DNA of 35,020 nucleotides from Bacteroidales bacterium (lineage in GTDB: Bacteria; Bacteroidota; Bacteroidia; Bacteroidales; B18-G4): contig JAUXCL010000003.1 of NCBI GenBank assembly GCA_030618905.1, forward strand, positions 1-35,020, in the 5' to 3' direction. Position numbers and translations under genes: made by a program. The notes beneath the pieces were generated by a model. It was not told the DNA's origin and made no database searches. It saw nothing but the letters and a program-made list of their open reading frames with translations. Positions 19,384-30,170 of the stretch are shown here, piece by piece; position 1 is the first letter of the stretch, and each line of letters begins with the position of its first letter.

Positions 19384-19518
19384 AATAATTATATATCTAA
19401 ATAATTTAAAAACACAATTTTACAAAATTTTATCGTTAGTCAGATAAAAATAATGCTTTTTAAATCAGTTAAAAAAGCCGTGAAAATCATATTTTTGACT
19501 GATCTAATACAGGTATTT

Positions 19519-20859
19519 ATGTTATTTACCAAATTATCAGGATTGAGAGCAATTCATACATATTTCATCTGCATATTAATTGCCCTGTCCTCCTCTTTGG
19601 TCGTTTTTTCACAGGACACTGAAGATCAGGATTATTTCAAGGAATTATTTATCCGAAACGAAGATTTTATTTATAAACCAAACATCAAAACGGTCTTACT
19701 GTACAAGGCCGGATGGGAAATGTCGCAACCAATCATCCAATTGAACACCGATGATAAAATGATCCTGACTTTTGATGATCTTGATGCTGACGACAAATAT
19801 TTTGGATATACCATTATCCACTGCAATGCCAACTGGCAGGAATCGGAGCTTAAGCAAAATGAATATATTGATGGATATTATGAGGATGAGATCTGGGATT
19901 ACGCCTTTTCATACAACACCACCAAAGCCTATACGAATTACAGGATTGAATTACCAACTGATTATTTACGCTTAACCAAATCCGGTAATTATATCCTGCG
20001 TGTTTATGAAGATGAAAATAAAGATGAAAATGTGATCTTCACCAGGCGTTTCATGGTCCTGGATCCAAAAGTCAGTGTTAATGCCAGGGTAAATCCAACG
20101 TCCAATGTTGCCGACAGGCAGACCAAACAAGCGGTAGACTTTACCATTTACAAGAACAATTACCTCATCCCCTTTCCATTTGAAAAGCTTAAAGTAGTAA
20201 TTACACAGAACCGGCGATGGGACAATGCCATCACAGACCTTAAACCCAGGCTGGTGAGTTACGACAAGTTAAGCTATGATTATGATGATGGTAATGTCTT
20301 TGACGGGGGCAATGAATTTCGGCATTTGGACATTAAAAGTACGATCTACCAAACTGAAAATATGAAGAACAAGTTCTACGACGCCACCGGTTATCATGTC
20401 TTTCTTTTAGCGGATGAGCGCAGGACTTTCGACAGGTATACTTTCCAGGAAGACCTGAACGGCAAATTGTACATAGAGGCTGAGAACGCCGGAGATGCCA
20501 ATATTGAAGGTGATTATATTTTTATACATTTCAAGTTTCCTTATAAAGTTCCCCTGGTTAATGGCAATCTCTACATTATGGGGGCCTTGACGAACTGGCA
20601 ATTCACGGAGGAAGGACGGCTAACCTATAACTTCCAGGAAAAGGCCTATGAAACCATCATGTACCTCAAACAGGGATACTACAACTATGTGTATGTCTTT
20701 CTCGAAGATGGGTATCCGGGAGCAGATATTACCTTAATGGAAGGTAATCATTGGGACACTGAAAATGATTATACCATTTTCGTTTACCACCGTGAAGAAG
20801 GGACTTATTATGATCAGTTGATCGGATTACAGTTCCTGAATTCCCTTTACAAGGATTGA
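19519..20859 (+). CDS. DUF5103 / type IX secretion system plug-like protein
   Basis: Secreted beta-rich protein (signal ICILIALSSSLVVFSQ) with QPIIQLNTDDKMILTFDDLDADDKYFGYTIIHCNANW and NGNLYIMGALTNWQF. ORF opens at 19453, signal peptide more consistent with ATG 19519. Confidence 0.8.
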   Translation: MLFTKLSGLRAIHTYFICILIALSSSLVVFSQDTEDQDYFKELFIRNEDFIYKPNIKTVLLYKAGWEMSQPIIQLNTDDKMILTFDDLDADDKYFGYTIIHCNANWQESELKQNEYIDGYYEDEIWDYAFSYNTTKAYTNYRIELPTDYLRLTKSGNYILRVYEDENKDENVIFTRRFMVLDPKVSVNARVNPTSNVADRQTKQAVDFTIYKNNYLIPFPFEKLKVVITQNRRWDNAITDLKPRLVSYDKLSYDYDDGNVFDGGNEFRHLDIKSTIYQTENMKNKFYDATGYHVFLLADERRTFDRYTFQEDLNGKLYIEAENAGDANIEGDYIFIHFKFPYKVPLVNGNLYIMGALTNWQFTEEGRLTYNFQEKAYETIMYLKQGYYNYVYVFLEDGYPGADITLMEGNHWDTENDYTIFVYHREEGTYYDQLIGLQFLNSLYKD

Positions 20860-22101: not shown

Positions 22102-22160
22102 TAACTATAAGCGTTAGTCTGTACCTTTACCTGCTCATACAAAGTTAAGTATTTTCATAC

Positions 22161-23093
22161 TTACCTGAATTTCTTTATCATTTTAACTGCAGATTTCACC
22201 AGGCCCGGAAGATTATTCCGATGAATCCTCAAATAATGACATTCCGTGGAACCAAAACCTTTATAAAACCTGGCAAGGTCAGTATCGTTGGAGCCATCAA
22301 AATCAAAGACCAGGTGCTGGTGGGCATGATCTTGTATATAAGCATCTATGATCATAAACATTGCACTATGTTCCCTGCCTTTGGTGTCCAGGCCTGAAAA
22401 AAGGAATATGCTCTTTTTATTGCTGTGCACGAACACGGCCCCGGCACACAGTTCATTGTAATCGGTAAAAGCCCCGTAAATCTCTGCCAGGCCTTTATAA
22501 ATGCATACATAAATAAGCTTCCGGAGCATCATGTAGTCTTTATCTTTAAGATGTTGTATTTCACGACCCTTATTTTGCCGGAACATTTCAATCAGCACAT
22601 CGGGTTTTTGGTTTTTCATGATGGTCAGACCCGACTTTTGTGCTTTTTTTATGTTTCTCTTTGTATTCTGAGAATAATGCTTACTGATGTTATCGTAAGC
22701 ATTGATCAGATCGAGTTCATGATTCAACTGGGGTGTGACTTCAAATCCATCGGAATCAATTTTATTCAGTGTGTTTAAGTTTATCTCGATATACCTGTAT
22801 TTTTTCGGAATGGCTTGCAAAAAATTCTCCACCACTTCAGCCGAGAGGATGCTGCGGGAAAATATTCCAAGCTGTTGTGTGAAATAAGGCTGGAACAGGT
22901 AAGATATTCCGTATTTCTTTCTTCCGGTAAGTGGAAAAACCCTTTCGTAATCATTTTCTATCAGTGCTTCCCAGCCATCGCAAACGATGTCAAGATACCA
23001 GCTGTAGGCATAAATTATTCCATTGAAAGCCGAACGGATGCTCTTATCCCATCTGGTCTTATCAATTTCATCATTTTTAAGGTACTTGATCAT
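22161..23093 (-). CDS. FemAB/BioF2-like GNAT-fold acyltransferase
   Basis: 310 aa. HYSQNTKRNIKKAQKSGLTI and FLFSGLDTKGREHSAMFMIIDAYIQDH...FDFDGSNDTDLARFYKGFGS are typical of FemAB/Acetyltransf_6 proteins. Start overlaps the upstream gene by 4 bp. Confidence 0.65.
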   Translation of the reverse strand: MIKYLKNDEIDKTRWDKSIRSAFNGIIYAYSWYLDIVCDGWEALIENDYERVFPLTGRKKYGISYLFQPYFTQQLGIFSRSILSAEVVENFLQAIPKKYRYIEINLNTLNKIDSDGFEVTPQLNHELDLINAYDNISKHYSQNTKRNIKKAQKSGLTIMKNQKPDVLIEMFRQNKGREIQHLKDKDYMMLRKLIYVCIYKGLAEIYGAFTDYNELCAGAVFVHSNKKSIFLFSGLDTKGREHSAMFMIIDAYIQDHAHQHLVFDFDGSNDTDLARFYKGFGSTECHYLRIHRNNLPGLVKSAVKMIKKFR

Positions 23094-24385
23094 TGAACTG
23101 CTTCTTTGATGATCTCTATAAAAGCATGGTGTTTGGCTTCATCATCCGACAGGGCATAATTATGCCAGATTCCAATCAATTCACCATTAACCTGTTTTAC
23201 AGATTGGATCAGGGGTCTTACAAATTTAATATAATCTTCCGGTAAAACCTGCATATAATCACTTAAAGCAGAATCCATAAATGCAAAAGGATGGATCCTG
23301 ATGGGAAGTTCCTTGTCCTGAACCAGGTCATAAGCATTGAAAGGACTGCTGATACTGGCTCTGAATCCCAAACCGGAAGCATAGCCCATTGAATATTCCC
23401 CTTGTATATCCTGGTTCATGAGGCGGGAATAGCTCGCAGGCAAATCAAGCATCAGGAAATGCTGCCGGCTGATCACAACAGGTTTGCTAATGATGGTGCT
23501 TAATCTTTTGACTTCAGCATGGATCTTGTCCGGATCTTTGGAAGATCCATAAGATGGATGAATTCCAAGTTCTGCCCGGGTCGATAATTTTTTTAATAAT
23601 TTTCTAAAACGCGTATTACGGTACGAGCTATTTTTATCATAGGCACCATAATCACCGATCAACACAAAATAAAGCGGGTGCAAATTATACTCATTAAAGA
23701 TATTCAGCTGCAAATCAAAATTATCAAAAGGATCATCCTGCATACCTGACAATACCCTGAGTTTTTCAATGCCTTCCTTGAAATTCAGTTTGAACAGCAA
23801 TTTGGCTAATCCCCCAAGAGATCTGATCAAGCCTTTCCCTTTGTGCGCAAAAGCCTGATCAATATCAACACTCGGTATAAATTTGTACTGCTGTTGAGGA
23901 AATTTAAATTCCGGATGATGAATCAGTAGCTGCTCCTTAATTTTCAAGGCCAGGATATTGATGAGGGGTTTGTCAAGAAACGCATTTTGACCTGCCAGGC
24001 TGTATTCCGGTATAAAACGGCCATGCCTGTCCCTTTCCCCGGGGATATATTCCTCATACCTTGAGGCCAGGTAAAAGGTCATCGCCAGTGGATCAAAAGG
24101 GAAAGGTAATACATTCTCCTGAATGAAAAATACGGGCAGGTCATTCCAGTTATCCACTGTGATGATTTGATTCTGGATATCACTCTCAAAGAGTATTTCA
24201 GCCGGCTTAAAGTGGATACCGCTACCCAGTGATGTCCCTGAATAATTAATTTTGAGTGCTGATGAGCTAATGTATTCCTCCAGGTTTGTGGTATAATGCA
24301 CCTCAACACCCAAAATGTCTGTAAAGATTATCCGGGAGGCATACCTGAGCCTGGGACTGTCTTTTTCACTGTATATCAGCACCAT
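23090..24385 (-). CDS. Polysaccharide deacetylase-like protein, DUF7033-type (paralog 1)
   Basis: 431 aa. FIPSVDIDQAFAHKGKGLIRSLGG, LGIHPSYGSSKDPDKIHAEVKRL, GFRASISSPFNAYDL, IHPFAFMD; aligns by eye with the 28763-30055 product. Confidence 0.75.
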   Translation of the reverse strand: MVLIYSEKDSPRLRYASRIIFTDILGVEVHYTTNLEEYISSSALKINYSGTSLGSGIHFKPAEILFESDIQNQIITVDNWNDLPVFFIQENVLPFPFDPLAMTFYLASRYEEYIPGERDRHGRFIPEYSLAGQNAFLDKPLINILALKIKEQLLIHHPEFKFPQQQYKFIPSVDIDQAFAHKGKGLIRSLGGLAKLLFKLNFKEGIEKLRVLSGMQDDPFDNFDLQLNIFNEYNLHPLYFVLIGDYGAYDKNSSYRNTRFRKLLKKLSTRAELGIHPSYGSSKDPDKIHAEVKRLSTIISKPVVISRQHFLMLDLPASYSRLMNQDIQGEYSMGYASGLGFRASISSPFNAYDLVQDKELPIRIHPFAFMDSALSDYMQVLPEDYIKFVRPLIQSVKQVNGELIGIWHNYALSDDEAKHHAFIEIIKEAVQ

Positions 24386-25232
24386 AATTAATCTTATCCT
24401 GTGTTGTTTTATACAAATTGAAAATCTGCAAAAATGATTTCAACTGATCCCGTAAATATAGCTTAGTATCGAAGCGGGCAATATTCATTGCATTATTTTG
24501 TGTGATGTCTTTGTGGATAATCTCGTGGGCATCAGCAATGCGCAGCATCGAAAATTCAACCTTGTTGATCACCTGCGTATTCAATATAGCAACTTCCAGT
24601 TTTTCCTGAAGTAATTCCAGGTTCATGGTCCAGCCATGGAGTTTTCGATAGAATAGCAATTTCTTCTCACCAGCTTGAGCACCGTCATTGTAATAACGTA
24701 TCAACAAGGGTTTGAAGTGCCTGTAAGGAACCTTATCCTGCTCTTCAACATAGTGTGTATATGTAAATGCTTCCGCAACATTGGTCCCGATAAACAGCAT
24801 TTTGGCATTCCATTCCAGGAACTTTGCAAATGGAGAATCGCTTCCAAAGGAGCTTTTATTTTGAAGGTTTTGCAGGGCCTCCGATTCCTTCCCCCATACC
24901 ATAAATGAATGCAGGGGATGCCAGGTTCTTTTAAAATCACCGCCCCGGAATGCAGCCAGTGCCATTGCCCCTGTTATAGGTTCAGTTTTTTTTACATCAA
25001 AGGTCTGGCCTGATCTAAGGTAAAAATTATAGGCCGGAAAGATCAGGGTTCCCTGAACCGTTAATTTGCGCTTAAAGCTATCAATTAAGGCATCAACATC
25101 AAAGGAGCGTTCATTCCGTTTAGCATTAAAGGCAAACCTGGTTATATCAGATGCGATGATCAGGACATCCGAGGCCTGGATATCCAGGTGATCAACAATT
25201 TCCTGATAAGGTATGTATGAAGTCGCTGTCAT
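24366..25232 (-). CDS. AAC(3)-fold N-acetyltransferase
   Basis: 288 aa. GTLIFPAYNFYLRSGQTFDV, RTWHPLHSFMVWG, FTYTHYVEEQDKVPYRHFK motifs of the aminoglycoside 3-N-acetyltransferase fold. Confidence 0.82.
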   Translation of the reverse strand: MTATSYIPYQEIVDHLDIQASDVLIIASDITRFAFNAKRNERSFDVDALIDSFKRKLTVQGTLIFPAYNFYLRSGQTFDVKKTEPITGAMALAAFRGGDFKRTWHPLHSFMVWGKESEALQNLQNKSSFGSDSPFAKFLEWNAKMLFIGTNVAEAFTYTHYVEEQDKVPYRHFKPLLIRYYNDGAQAGEKKLLFYRKLHGWTMNLELLQEKLEVAILNTQVINKVEFSMLRIADAHEIIHKDITQNNAMNIARFDTKLYLRDQLKSFLQIFNLYKTTQDKINYGADIQ

Positions 25233-25258
25233 ATTTATAATAACCAGGGTTTGATGAA

Positions 25259-25738
25259 CTAGACCATTTTACGAAACTGTATTAACTCGTTTGCATAACC
25301 CATCTCCTTCCAGAAGTCAATGGCAGTTGTATTTTCTGATAAGGCCTGTAACTCAATGGAGTGGACTTGCTGTTCAATAAACCAGTGCTCAAGTTTTTCC
25401 AGCAATGCCTTAGCGATTTTTTGTTTCCGGTATTCCGGTCTGACATAGATATGGGTGACTACCCCAATCTTTTTATTTCCCAGGTAATCCGGTGCCATGC
25501 TCAAAGCGCCGTGTGCGAATGCAATCATATCACTACCATGGAAAGCAACCTCCACGGTTGTAAATCTTTTCAAGGTTCGTTTCAGGGAAAGCATCCATTT
25601 ATCAACGCCATCCTTTTCCAATTGCAGCATTAAGCCATATTCCTGCATATAAGTATACATTTCAGCAAAAAGCAGGGCTACCTGTTTCAGGTCCTGATCC
25701 TCCGGATCCTGAATCTGTTTATAATGGATCTTATTCAT
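25259..25738 (-). CDS. GNAT family N-acetyltransferase
   Basis: IGVVTHIYVRPEYRKQKIAKALLEKLEHWF motif A; likely start MNKIHYKQ at 25738, overlapping the carrier-protein stop codon (ATGAATAA). Confidence 0.85.
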   Translation of the reverse strand: MNKIHYKQIQDPEDQDLKQVALLFAEMYTYMQEYGLMLQLEKDGVDKWMLSLKRTLKRFTTVEVAFHGSDMIAFAHGALSMAPDYLGNKKIGVVTHIYVRPEYRKQKIAKALLEKLEHWFIEQQVHSIELQALSENTTAIDFWKEMGYANELIQFRKMV

Positions 25739-25994
25739 TTGATGCTTGCATAAATAAATCAATAATACCGGAAACTGTCGTAAGACCTTCTTCCTCCATG
25801 ATCTTTTCGAAATCGATTTCTACCTTTACTATTTCTTCCATAGCGCCGATCAGGTCGACAAAAGTCATAGAGTCAAGCAAACCGCTTCTGACCAGGTCAA
25901 AGTCCTGTTTGACTTCCCCAGGTTCAATCCCAAAACGGAGAAGCCGATCATCAATTAGTTGCAAAAGCAGTTTCTTTATTTCCTGCTCATTCAT
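25731..25994 (-). CDS. Acyl/peptidyl carrier protein
   Basis: 87 aa. VRSGLLDSMTFVDLIGAMEEIVKVEIDF with phosphopantetheine-site Ser in DSM. Confidence 0.9.
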   Translation of the reverse strand: MNEQEIKKLLLQLIDDRLLRFGIEPGEVKQDFDLVRSGLLDSMTFVDLIGAMEEIVKVEIDFEKIMEEEGLTTVSGIIDLFMQASNE

Positions 25995-27532
25995 AGGAGT
26001 TCAATCAGTTTATTTCGGTCTATCTTACCATTATCGTTCAAAGGCAAATGCGCTATCCGGATGATCTTCTGCGGAACCATATACCAAGGTAATTGTTTTC
26101 TGCAAATTTCGAGCAAGCGCTGCTCATTAAATTCTTCCTCATCGTTCTCCACAAATGAAACCAGGGATTGAGTGCCTGTACTTTGATCCTCGACAGCTAT
26201 GGTAGCCAGGTTATTGATTTTTCCGAGCTGCCGCAGCGTCTCGTCAATTTCCAACAGGTTGACCCGGTAACCACTGATCTTCACTTCCGCATCGGCCCTG
26301 CCGAGGAAGAAAAGATCATGGTCAGCATCTTCAAGCACAAGGTCTCCTGTATTATACCATGATATGTCACTTTTTGGATCCAGTTTCACAAAACTCATGG
26401 ATTCATCCTCCCGGGCCTGCAAATAGCCATCAATCACCTGTGTACCAGAAAGGTGCAACAATCCCTGTGATTTCGCTTCCAGGGCTTGTTTTTCATCATC
26501 CAGGATACGATATTGCTGATCTTTAAAGATCTTGCCGATGGAAACAATGCCATTCCCGGATTTGTTTTTATCAGGAGACTTCTGCCATTCGTAAGCTGCT
26601 ATGGCAATTGTCGTTTCTGTCGGACCGTACAAATTGATCAGCCTTGATGAAGGGGCAGCCTGTTGCCAGTGATGCGCCGTCTTTTCGAGTAAAGGTTCAC
26701 CGCAGAAGAAGCTCCATTTTAATGAAGGGAAAAAGGCCGGACGCAAGAGACGCATTTTATCCATCATGACAGCCATAGAAGGTACCGAGAACCATACAGT
26801 GATCTTGTGCTCATTGATGTATTTTGGGTATGCAAAAGGCTTATCGGCTGCAGGGACACAAAGGCATCCTCCGCTCAGCCAGCAGACAAATAAGTCATGC
26901 ACGCTAAGGTCAAAGGTCAGGTCAAATGTCTGTGAGAAGCGATCAGATTCATGAAATTTATACATCCCCATCAGGTTATCCAGGTAGGCAGTAACATTCC
27001 GGTTGCTGACCGGAACCCCTTTGGGCGCACCGCTTGTACCAGAGGTAAAAAGAAGGTATGCTGTCTGGTCTTTGGTCGATTGAATTTCGGGGACAATCCC
27101 GGCAGGTTCAATATAACCTGATTCCTTCAGATCAGGATTGATGATATTCAATGCGCCATTATGTTGTTGTATGATATCATCCATCAGGTCCAGTTGATCA
27201 TTGGCCACGATAATCGTGCCGGCTGCAGATCTTTGGATCATTTCCAGGTTCCTGTTCAGCGGAAAGCGTGGATTCAGGGGGAGGTAAGGCCGGGAAGCCA
27301 TTAAAGCGCCAAGAATGCCGGCATATGCTGTAATGCCTTTTGCTGCCAGGATGGCCACCGGGGATGATTCATCACTTATTGACATTATCCTGCGGGCAAT
27401 TCCGGCACTTAAGCTCAACAATGCTGAATAGGACCATACCTCTCCGCCAACTTCCAGGGCCGGATTTTCACTGTATATTTCGGCTGATGAAAGAAATCGA
27501 TGTATTAATATATGGGTGGTTCCCTGTTTCAA
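25991..27532 (-). CDS. Stand-alone amino-acid/acyl adenylation enzyme (DltA-like)
   Basis: 513 aa. A-domain motifs YLLFTSGTSGAPKGVPVSN, NLYGPTETTIA, YNTGDL, GRADAEVKISGYRVNL, NDNGKIDRNKL; ATGA overlap with the downstream carrier protein. Confidence 0.9.
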   Translation of the reverse strand: MKQGTTHILIHRFLSSAEIYSENPALEVGGEVWSYSALLSLSAGIARRIMSISDESSPVAILAAKGITAYAGILGALMASRPYLPLNPRFPLNRNLEMIQRSAAGTIIVANDQLDLMDDIIQQHNGALNIINPDLKESGYIEPAGIVPEIQSTKDQTAYLLFTSGTSGAPKGVPVSNRNVTAYLDNLMGMYKFHESDRFSQTFDLTFDLSVHDLFVCWLSGGCLCVPAADKPFAYPKYINEHKITVWFSVPSMAVMMDKMRLLRPAFFPSLKWSFFCGEPLLEKTAHHWQQAAPSSRLINLYGPTETTIAIAAYEWQKSPDKNKSGNGIVSIGKIFKDQQYRILDDEKQALEAKSQGLLHLSGTQVIDGYLQAREDESMSFVKLDPKSDISWYNTGDLVLEDADHDLFFLGRADAEVKISGYRVNLLEIDETLRQLGKINNLATIAVEDQSTGTQSLVSFVENDEEEFNEQRLLEICRKQLPWYMVPQKIIRIAHLPLNDNGKIDRNKLIELL

Positions 27533-27536
27533 TTCG

Positions 27537-28739
27537 TTAAGATTTCTTTAGGTTTTGTTCCAGGATCAGTGCATCCGCAAAATACTTTGTAGCCCAGTTT
27601 GGGAATGCAAATGGTTCATACTTTCCCCAGATCGGGAATGAACCGGGTATGGCCCCTTTGGTATTGTCAGAGCCACTTAGCTGCCGGTTCTGTATGTTGG
27701 CCAATAAAGTATTCATGCCCAGGGCCGCATCAAAGAATTGTTGATCGCCGGTCAGCACAAATAGTTTTTGCCAGATGATGCTCATTTGGGCACAGCCTGT
27801 AAGGATCATGTATTCACTACCTGCCCAATTGGCGTCATACCTGCCATGCAATTTACCATCCCTTATAAAAATATCCCTCAACCTGATGGCAGGTTGGAGT
27901 GCCGCTTGTTTATATTTATCATTTCCCAGGTGAATTCCTGAATCCAAAAGCCCATCGATAGTATAAGCAATGGTATGGAGGATTGGTCTGTCGTTATGCT
28001 TGATCGTGTTGTCACAATCCTCAAACCAGGCATTAGCATGTTGCTTGTGATCAACGACCCAATCCAGGTTCTTAATGGCATGTTGAGCATATTTCTTATC
28101 CTGGGTATGATCGGAAAGCATCAACAGGGGTGCATCCACGTATGTGTCATATACCCGCTCATTTTCCATCAAAGCATGCATTTTCCAATATCCCTGTTTG
28201 GATTGAACCTGGCAAAGCCAGTCGCCAGCCTTTGTTGCAGCTTTAAGAAACCTGTCATCCTGTGTATGTGCATATGCTGCCAGCATCCCCCTTATGACCT
28301 GCCCTGTATTAAACACAATTTCAGGTTTCTGCTCACTCACCCTTCCCCCCTGCCATCCTCCGGATTCCTTTTGGATAGAGAGCAACCATTCAGCGACTTT
28401 TAGGGCTGTTTGGATACTTTCATCATTACCTGTAAGTCCTCCATAAACCATCAATGTAGGGATGATGTACCCGGATGTTTCCGGATATGAAGAAGACCAG
28501 CCGTCTACCAGGTGATATGAGCCCATGCCATCATCACTCATATTTTTTTGTGCAATCATCAACCATCGAATCGCATCGTCAAGGGCCTGGCTTTTATCCA
28601 TCTTTTTGTGAGACCCGGGCTTAATGAAATTACCTTTTTGGAAATACAGGCGTTTTACATCGAGCACAGCGATATTCCGCTCTTTCCGGAAAGCAAGGGA
28701 ACTGATGTTTTTGGTATATAAATAGAGGCTGTTGAGCAT
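27537..28739 (-). CDS. Alpha/alpha-toroid-like protein of unknown function (possible carbohydrate-active enzyme)
   Basis: 400 aa with repeated helical segments (GYIIPTLMVYGGLTGNDESIQTALKVAEWLLSIQKESGGWQGG; GQVIRGMLAAYAHTQDDRFLKAATKAGDWLCQVQ; HTIAYTIDGLLDSGI). Confidence 0.55.
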   Translation of the reverse strand: MLNSLYLYTKNISSLAFRKERNIAVLDVKRLYFQKGNFIKPGSHKKMDKSQALDDAIRWLMIAQKNMSDDGMGSYHLVDGWSSSYPETSGYIIPTLMVYGGLTGNDESIQTALKVAEWLLSIQKESGGWQGGRVSEQKPEIVFNTGQVIRGMLAAYAHTQDDRFLKAATKAGDWLCQVQSKQGYWKMHALMENERVYDTYVDAPLLMLSDHTQDKKYAQHAIKNLDWVVDHKQHANAWFEDCDNTIKHNDRPILHTIAYTIDGLLDSGIHLGNDKYKQAALQPAIRLRDIFIRDGKLHGRYDANWAGSEYMILTGCAQMSIIWQKLFVLTGDQQFFDAALGMNTLLANIQNRQLSGSDNTKGAIPGSFPIWGKYEPFAFPNWATKYFADALILEQNLKKS

Positions 28740-28762
28740 TTACAGTAGCTTAATATGGAACA

Positions 28763-30055
28763 TCATGTCAGGATCATTTGTATCATCTTTTCATAGAAAG
28801 TCAATCCGAAAGGTGCGCCCGGGTTTTTGATTAATGCATCATTGCTCCACATACTGATAAGGGTTGCATTTACCTTCTTTACTTCATCGCGTATTTGTCT
28901 GAATTGCTCCATAGGAGAAATGTCGCTTTGGATATCGACATCCAGGATGGCAAAAGGATGAATGCGAAGCTTGGTCTCCACATCCAGGTCCAGGTCATAA
29001 AAGTTAAATGCATTGCTGATGCCTGCCCTGAACCCGGGATGGTTGACATAACCCATTGAATAATCATCACTGATATCAAGGTTAACCATGTTCCTGTATG
29101 TGACCGGCATATTCAATACCAGGAAGTGCTGCCTGATTTTAGAAATCTCCCTGTTCAATACTTTTGAGAGCCGGTTAAGTTCTATTTGCAATAAATCAGG
29201 ATCACGGATGGATGAGAATGAAGAATGCAGGCCTACTTTACAATAATCAGCCAGGGATTTGATCAGCACCTGGAAGCGCCGGCTGTTTACACTTATATTC
29301 TTGTCATTATGGCCATAGTCGGCAAAAAGGATAAAATAGATGGTTTTCAGGTCATATTTTTTTTGCAGCTCCAGTTGATCCTTATAAGTATCAATCGGAT
29401 CGGGATGTGTGCCCATGATGACTTTTGTCCGTTGCAGCATTCCGCCAAAATCAAGGTCACCCACTGATTTAAGATAACCACCAATAGTCCGTACCAGGCC
29501 TTTGGACCTCATTGCATAAGCTGCATTGATATCTATGGATGGGATGAATTGAAATCGTTGTTCAGGCATTTTCATGCCTGGAAATTGCTTAAGCAACAAT
29601 GATTTGATCTGTTGCGCCCAGATATTGACGATGGGTTTGTGCAGGAAGCCATTTTTAAACGCCAGGCTGTCCTTTGCCTGAAATCTTCCATGTTCATCTT
29701 TGACATAGGGGAGATATTCTTCATAGCGGGTAATCAGGTAAAACGCGGCAGCAAAAGGGTCAAAAGGCATCGCCGAAACATGGTCATAAACCGGGAAGAA
29801 AGCCGGGTTGCCTTCATCATCAATAACAACTATTTCCTGCCCGCCAATGCCCCGCTCATGCAACAAGTTTTCGCTATGAAAGAATATACCCTTTTCAAGC
29901 GTTGTGGTGGAATAATTTATGGCAGGTCCTTCATAAGCCAAATATTCTTCAGTGTTTTCCGTGAAGGCATATTCCACATCCAGGATATCACTAAAAAACA
30001 CTTTAAAAATATACTTAATCCGGTTGCAAAGTTTAGGAGTGTATATCAGCAGCAT
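28763..30055 (-). CDS. Polysaccharide deacetylase-like protein, DUF7033-type (paralog 2)
   Basis: 430 aa. LIYTPKLCNRIKYIFKVFFSDILDVEYAFTENTEEYLAYEG, FIPSIDINAAYAMRSKGLVRTIGG, VGLHSSFSSIRDPDLLQIELNRL, GFRAGISNAFNFYDLD, LRIHPFAILD. Confidence 0.75.
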   Translation of the reverse strand: MLLIYTPKLCNRIKYIFKVFFSDILDVEYAFTENTEEYLAYEGPAINYSTTTLEKGIFFHSENLLHERGIGGQEIVVIDDEGNPAFFPVYDHVSAMPFDPFAAAFYLITRYEEYLPYVKDEHGRFQAKDSLAFKNGFLHKPIVNIWAQQIKSLLLKQFPGMKMPEQRFQFIPSIDINAAYAMRSKGLVRTIGGYLKSVGDLDFGGMLQRTKVIMGTHPDPIDTYKDQLELQKKYDLKTIYFILFADYGHNDKNISVNSRRFQVLIKSLADYCKVGLHSSFSSIRDPDLLQIELNRLSKVLNREISKIRQHFLVLNMPVTYRNMVNLDISDDYSMGYVNHPGFRAGISNAFNFYDLDLDVETKLRIHPFAILDVDIQSDISPMEQFRQIRDEVKKVNATLISMWSNDALIKNPGAPFGLTFYEKMIQMILT

Positions 30056-30170
30056 AACACAACAAATATACGATAAAAAATCAGGGTGATAATTTAGCAG
30101 AATGCCATGTCACATTTTAAAAGTTTAGTACTTTTGATGTGCATATCTACTAATTACTGAACCCAATTCC

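Follow-up and report, generated by a model that had tools for sequence, protein, structure and literature searches.

An eight-gene Bacteroidales operon as a possible carrier-dependent variant of the Vim pathway for type IX linking sugars

What might be made by an operon that combines a stand-alone adenylation enzyme and a carrier protein with two deacetylase-like proteins and several transferases? This question is raised by positions 22161-30055 of a 35,020-nucleotide stretch of contig JAUXCL010000003.1 from a Bacteroidales bacterium (assembly GCA_030618905.1), the whole of which we refer to as the window. Our analysis indicated that the operon has two layers, a widespread gene pair for VimE-like and VimA-like proteins and a rarer add-on (toroid, adenylation enzyme, carrier protein, GNAT, and AAC(3)-fold protein). 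In Porphyromonas and Tannerella, the Wbp/Vim pathway, which includes VimE and VimA, makes the aminoacylated linking sugar that anchors cargo of the type IX secretion system (T9SS), with VimA determining serine versus glycine on the sugar (PMC7468200), and linking sugars vary between species (PMC11969387). Our preferred reading, in which our confidence is evenly balanced, is that the operon is a Vim-pathway variant in which a deacetylated amino sugar, probably the linking sugar of T9SS cargo, would receive an aminoacyl group from a carrier. The preliminary description of this DNA had recognized no named pathway; half of the operon is a distant form of the Wbp/Vim pathway. The genes, in order of transcription, are as follows.

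28763-30055, minus strand: VimE-like DUF7033 protein b (deacetylase b, deacetylase-2), the first gene, 430 amino acids
27537-28739, minus strand: toroid, an (alpha/alpha)6-barrel protein, 400 amino acids
25991-27532, minus strand: stand-alone adenylation enzyme (A-domain), 513 amino acids, TTG start
25731-25994, minus strand: acyl/peptidyl carrier protein (ACP), 87 amino acids
25259-25738, minus strand: GNAT-fold acyltransferase, 159 amino acids counted from ATG
24366-25232, minus strand: AAC(3)-fold (Antibiotic_NAT) acyltransferase, 288 amino acids
23090-24385, minus strand: VimE-like DUF7033 protein a (deacetylase a, deacetylase-1), CE4 fold, 431 amino acids
22161-23093, minus strand: VimA-like FemAB-family aminoacyl transferase, 310 amino acids

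The listing of open reading frames confirmed eight consecutive minus-strand frames across this interval. Overlaps join A-domain and ACP (4 base pairs, 25991-25994), ACP and GNAT (8 base pairs, 25731-25738), AAC(3) and deacetylase a (20 base pairs, 24366-24385), and deacetylase a and FemAB (4 base pairs, 23090-23093), and the gaps measure 23 base pairs (deacetylase b/toroid), 4 base pairs (toroid/A-domain), and 26 base pairs (GNAT/AAC(3)). The eight genes and four overlaps given in the preliminary description were exact, and Pfam supported the fold that it had assigned to each named gene.

Using the AAC(3) protein as a tracer among 149 relatives, we found a strong match in 11 besides the window, of which 7 share its family and the remaining 4 are spread over four further families of the order, such that the AAC(3)-centred add-on is present in about 8% of relatives. 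The conserved order is dnaX, deacetylase b, toroid, A-domain, ACP, GNAT, AAC(3), deacetylase a, FemAB, and an ATP-binding cassette (ABC) permease. All eight genes occurred in this order in five relatives (L017, L018, L020, L021, and L022), and seven genes, without deacetylase b, in five others (L023, L024, L026, L087, and L096); the operon was always on the same side of dnaX in these ten. The position of the deacetylase a gene beside the AAC(3) gene is maintained across five families. The co-occurrence search called for in the preliminary description thus found the genes together in ten other Bacteroidales genomes, and because the order recurs, in full or minus the first gene, the set is not a product of chance and constitutes a conserved operon. 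The window genome (G000) is an 82%-complete metagenome-assembled genome (MAG) of 245 contigs, and presence and absence calls rest on searches of that genome; a chimeric contig is unlikely, since other MAGs have matching gene order. Operon carriers with named records were exclusively uncultured Bacteroidales MAGs.

The genes at both ends of the operon connect it to the Vim pathway. Pfam assigned both deacetylase-like proteins to DUF7033 (E=1e-35 for 28763-30055 and E=1.1e-27 for 23090-24385), and the sole NCBIfam match of both was VimE (E about 1e-37), with scores of 127.5 and 128.4 bits, respectively, that do not reach the 440-bit cut-off of the VimE equivalog (NF053580, UDP-2,3-diacetamido-2,3-dideoxy-glucuronate deacetylase). 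The product of the last gene matched Pfam FemAB (E=9e-7). At locus L067, a VimE protein above the cut-off lies within a peroxiredoxin (bcp)-recA-FemAB-LmbE-VimE locus, and the FemAB protein there (L067:10837-11796), which is VimA by position, aligned by BLASTP with the window protein at E=1e-23 and 26% identity over ~300 amino acids, nearly the full length. Judged from these matches, VimE has distant homologues in the DUF7033 proteins (DEACETYLASES), and VimA has one in the FemAB protein. Sequence searches with the VimE-like and FemAB alignments against solved structures returned no match.

The two VimE-like proteins are not equivalent. In an alignment of 36 DUF7033 proteins, numbered by gene 23090-24385, D174, H276, R307, and H309 were nearly always kept. 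Deacetylase a conserves D174, D176, H276, R307, H309, and H408, and like other family members retains D, Y, and H at positions 176, 279, and 408 almost throughout, whereas deacetylase b carried D176N, Y279F, and H408N/S in 6/6 members. The VimE-type set of metal and catalytic residues is therefore complete in 23090-24385 and incomplete in 28763-30055. An AlphaFold2 model of deacetylase a (mean predicted local distance difference test, pLDDT, 93.6) has a CE4-type fold, for which Foldseek found ArnD and polysaccharide deacetylases to be closest, with modest TM-scores. From residues and model, deacetylase a is a probable active N-deacetylase, and its counterpart b, from the residues it has lost, is probably a pseudoenzyme. 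The preliminary description of two deacetylase-like paralogs was right about fold and family, and missed both the loss of three active-site residues from b and the homology to VimE. The a and b groups form separate, well-supported clades (support for the b clade, 100/100), with b placed among single-copy proteins that have intact residues. We rejected a recent tandem duplication as the origin of the two genes because the tree places them in different clades.

A VimE-family match was present in 212/295 genomes of the order, mostly in single copy, with only 9 exceeding the VimE cut-off. VimE-like proteins occurred together with the sortase PorU in 209 of these 295 genomes and without it in 3, while 58 had PorU only and 25 had neither (Fisher p=1e-12), and the VimA-like FemAB protein and the VimE family occurred together in 106 of 149 genomes (a set that was inferred), singly in 4 and 6, and not at all in 33 (p=1e-22); these tests ignore phylogeny, and their significance is overstated. 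The VimE-like and VimA-like genes were no more than 3 kb apart in 48/74 genomes in which both were located. Every operon genome in the sample has PorU. The VimE-like/VimA-like pair is thus widespread in the order, is co-inherited, and tracks PorU. Because the VimA-like protein is, in most genomes, not accompanied by the A-domain, it probably acts independently of ACP. The window genome has two PorU-family sortase genes above the NF033707 cut-off (C189:3677-7003 and C20:2-3292), and two such genes, often in tandem, occur in many genomes of the order.

We then turn to the add-on. The protein encoded at 25991-27532 has Pfam AMP-binding and AMP-binding_C domains, and its best NCBIfam models were TIGR01733 (amino-acid adenylation; E=1e-88) and those for DltA (E=3e-75). 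With code positions read against what we take to be the GrsA ruler, anchored on core motifs, every full-length main-operon member has the code D L H F (F/L) C L I A K (D L H F F C L I A K in the window), with Asp235 and Lys517 retained. Since the code keeps the Asp that binds the alpha-amino group, the A-domain is predicted to activate one conserved small alpha-amino acid. The earlier suggestion that an amino or aryl/acyl acid is activated agrees with the code for an amino acid and disagrees for an aryl or hydroxy acid. The ACP scored above the Pfam PP-binding cut-off, and its phosphopantetheine Ser lies within a D-S-[ML] motif that was invariant in all ACPs aligned.

The AAC(3)-fold protein belongs to PF02522 (Antibiotic_NAT; E=7.5e-23), with H160 and E163-E164 invariant. 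Its homologues have such neighbors in several phyla: both an A-domain and an ACP gene in Prevotella, Campylobacter, and Succinivibrio, and an A-domain gene in two Brevibacillus genomes, one of which also has the ACP gene. An A-ACP-GNAT-AAC(3) block occurs without Vim genes at L099, L166, and L167. At L098 it accompanies a VimE-like gene of a different lineage, and the A-domain code there reads D L Q L M C L V A K. The repeated location of AAC(3) beside both a carrier and a deacetylase favors a reaction in which a group bound to the carrier is passed to a freed amine, making the AAC(3)-fold protein a likely carrier-dependent N-acyltransferase. The GNAT protein (Pfam Acetyltransf_1, E=3.7e-14) is always encoded between ACP and AAC(3), including in the cassette outside this order. 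In the window GNAT (25259-25738, minus strand), R-K-Q-K-I-A stands where most relatives keep the acetyl-CoA motif R-x-x-G-x-G/A, and in this single genome the protein may be impaired or have changed.

Some AAC(3) neighborhoods contain other proteins. In Prevotella aff. ruminicola Tc2-24, genes for an A-domain, a glyoxalase-like protein, an ACP, and AAC(3) lie in a row (L137:7822-10786), with an A-domain code, D I F F W A L L D K, that differs from that of the operon. A DUF4910/DUF2172/HTH_47 protein, a possible third partner of the AAC(3)-fold acyltransferase, is encoded one to three genes from AAC(3) in Brevibacillus, Campylobacter, and a Bacteroidota genome (L102:10793-12088, L126:2-1372, and L167:6602-7873).

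For the toroid, Pfam matched (alpha/alpha)6-barrel families, with GH88 just at the cut-off. The AlphaFold2 model (pLDDT 89.8; predicted TM-score, 0.92) gave unsaturated glucuronyl hydrolase and sugar 2-epimerases as best Foldseek matches (TM 0.6-0.7), and an alignment search against solved structures found only the repeats of squalene cyclase and like barrels. In a by-eye alignment with a GH88 sequence, one catalytic Asp aligned (D198) and the other did not. No signal peptide was evident by eye, and the natural reading of the model is that the toroid would bind or modify a sugar in the cytoplasm. At L024, toroid and A-domain are fused into one 937-amino-acid protein, suggesting that the two act together.

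Considering these components together, we infer the following steps. Deacetylase a would remove the N-acetyl group of an amino sugar that is linked to a nucleotide or a lipid, the step proposed for VimE. The A-domain would activate a small alpha-amino acid with ATP and load it onto ACP, from which the AAC(3)-fold protein would pass the aminoacyl group to the free sugar amine. The VimA-like protein would also add an amino acid, either to a second amine or onto the first residue, as in FemX/A/B chains, and GNAT would add a further acyl group, while the toroid and the probably inactive deacetylase b would bind the sugar substrate or shape it. This would yield a linking sugar that bears an amino acid; its free amine would resolve the intermediate of the PorU sortase and tether type IX cargo to lipopolysaccharide. 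The most likely contribution of the add-on is a second aminoacylation or an alternative one. More tentatively, at somewhat less than even confidence, we propose that it constitutes a second route to the T9SS linking sugar, in which an A-domain-charged ACP and AAC(3)-fold transfer work beside a VimA-type transferase and leave the sugar with a pair of aminoacyl groups or a short peptide, aided by a pseudo-deacetylase as a dedicated helper. The chemistry in the preliminary description (activation, carrier loading, and transfer to a deacetylated amino sugar) is consistent with all tests made here; the description missed the Vim link and the two-layer make-up of the operon. The window genome also encodes, on C193 (L189:432-1565), a WecE-type dTDP-4-amino-4,6-dideoxygalactose transaminase above cut-off, and a 4-amino-deoxyhexose is therefore also available as a possible acceptor sugar.

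Several observations weigh against a Vim-pathway variant dedicated to T9SS. The operon VimE-like proteins share only about 21-24% identity with VimE proteins above the equivalog cut-off, score 127-128 bits against the required 440, and form a separate clade. The PorU link is confounded by shared ancestry, T9SS being common in the order. The operon itself contains no glycosyltransferase gene. WbpA, WbpB, WbpE, and WbpD make UDP-2,3-diacetamido-glucuronate in the Wbp/Vim pathway; no Wbp gene was identified in the window genome by a search aimed at DegT aminotransferases, of which it found 3, none assignable as WbpE. Finally, AAC(3) was found in only 3/151 Bacteroidaceae compared to 111/151 with PorU; because almost none of the Bacteroidaceae with PorU have it, T9SS does not in general require the add-on. 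We also rejected the A-ACP-AAC(3) cassette as the source of the Prevotella intermedia N-alanyl linking sugar, given this rarity and the absence of PorU from two of the 3 genomes.

In a serious rival account, which we consider somewhat doubtful, the amino sugar that the operon N-aminoacylates would belong to a plain surface glycan, such as O-antigen, capsule, or exopolysaccharide, and have nothing to do with T9SS anchoring. AAC(3) homologues are abundant in Lachnospiraceae, a family that is not known to have T9SS, and the L099 cassette without Vim genes adjoins a ManC-like nucleotidyl transferase gene. In Flavobacteriales, a VimE-like/AAC(3) pair lies beside UDP-GlcNAc 2-epimerase, in one case also with sugar transferases: L108 has VimE-like, AAC(3), and FemAB genes adjoining the epimerase gene, and at L112 the epimerase gene is accompanied by toroid and AAC(3) genes and by a VimE-like gene that is partial. 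N-alanyl sugars are also known in O-antigens (PMC11969387). An ordinary surface glycan accounts less well for a deacetylase/FemAB pair that is co-inherited and tracks PorU, and the operon lacks the glycosyltransferase, flippase, or polymerase of a capsule locus. Between the AAC(3) and FemAB genes of L108 lies a gene for a 328-amino-acid protein without a family match (L108:10792-11778).

Production of a small diffusible metabolite by an A-domain/ACP/AAC(3) module merely co-transcribed with the Vim genes appears improbable. Natural-product pathways often use a stand-alone A-domain together with a carrier protein. The lincosamide synthetase (lincomycin and celesticetin) belongs to an antibiotic pathway, and its condensing enzyme is not known to be related to AAC(3). 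In that synthetase, an adenylation domain and carrier amidate an amino sugar with an amino acid (PMC4351081). In the operon, the deacetylase gene overlaps the AAC(3) gene in a position held across five families, and no condensation, thioesterase, or export gene is present. The open literature searched for A-domain and carrier pairs acting on nucleotide sugars held nothing relevant beyond the lincosamides. Aminoglycoside detoxification by AAC(3) and GNAT is very improbable, since the Pfam family name and weak AAC(3) and AAC(6') model matches are offset by scores far under the resistance cut-offs (34.7 of 270 bits for AAC(3) and 38.6 of 140), by the A-domain and ACP partners, and by a fixed chromosomal site by dnaX that argues for a housekeeping role.

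To return to the Vim-pathway variant, its closest known counterpart is the Wbp/Vim system of Porphyromonas gingivalis and Tannerella forsythia, with which the operon shares homologous adjacent genes for a deacetylase (VimE) and a FemAB-type transferase (VimA) in PorU-bearing genomes. The operon differs in that its proteins are about 21-26% identical to true Vim proteins, in having no Wbp genes inside it, and in adding an A-domain, ACP, AAC(3), GNAT, toroid, and a second, probably inactive deacetylase. As such a variant, it would work like the Vim pathway yet lies outside the VimE equivalog. The DltA/DltC system for teichoic acid D-alanylation likewise has a stand-alone A-domain with a small separate carrier, and the operon A-domain is near DltA models. 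Taking the DltA code to be D L M T L C T V A K, the two have Asp235 and Cys301 in common and differ at H239, F278, L322, I330, and mostly F299 of the operon code. In contrast to DltA, the operon A-domain scored 250.6 of 559.85 bits, below the equivalog cut-off; DltB and DltD genes are absent from the operon, and the proposed acceptor is an amine inside the cell. The PEP-CTERM/XrtA-associated FemAB (TIGR03019) and acyl ligase (TIGR03098) belong to the same superfamilies, but the operon FemAB reached 17.8 of 260 bits and the A-domain 176 of 592 bits, and the operon context is Bacteroidales T9SS. An amino-sugar anchor for sorted proteins has been proposed for the PEP-CTERM/XrtA system (PMC7468200).

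A pattern scan for Bacteroidota -7 boxes found one candidate at each end of the operon.

30063-30070, minus strand: candidate -7 promoter box TATATTTG, just before the first gene
22140-22147, minus strand: candidate separate -7 box TAACTTTG, just before the downstream ABC permease

Both boxes are suggestive only, since over the window the motif occurs about as often as expected by chance (35 found versus 32 expected) and is not enriched. The first may be the promoter of the first gene, before which no clear -33 box was seen by eye, and the second may give the ABC permease its own promoter and so mark the end of the operon. Two genes downstream of the operon is a T9SS plug-protein gene (19453-20859, plus strand; PF17116, E=3.5e-41), which adjoins a MacB-type permease gene without an ATPase gene and holds the same position in many relatives.

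We found no description of such an operon in the open literature searched, which omits most subscription papers, and no paper on DUF7033 in the same literature. DUF7033, listed by Pfam as of unknown function, gains a likely role from our analysis, and AAC(3)-fold proteins of this kind are marked as likely carrier-dependent acyltransferases instead of resistance enzymes. Anchoring of type IX-secreted cargo in Bacteroidota is known from a few oral species only, and further linking-sugar pathways are expected by the authors of work on these sugars (PMC11969387). The compact operon described here may make a different linking sugar, in an order across which VimE-like/VimA-like pairs are widespread.

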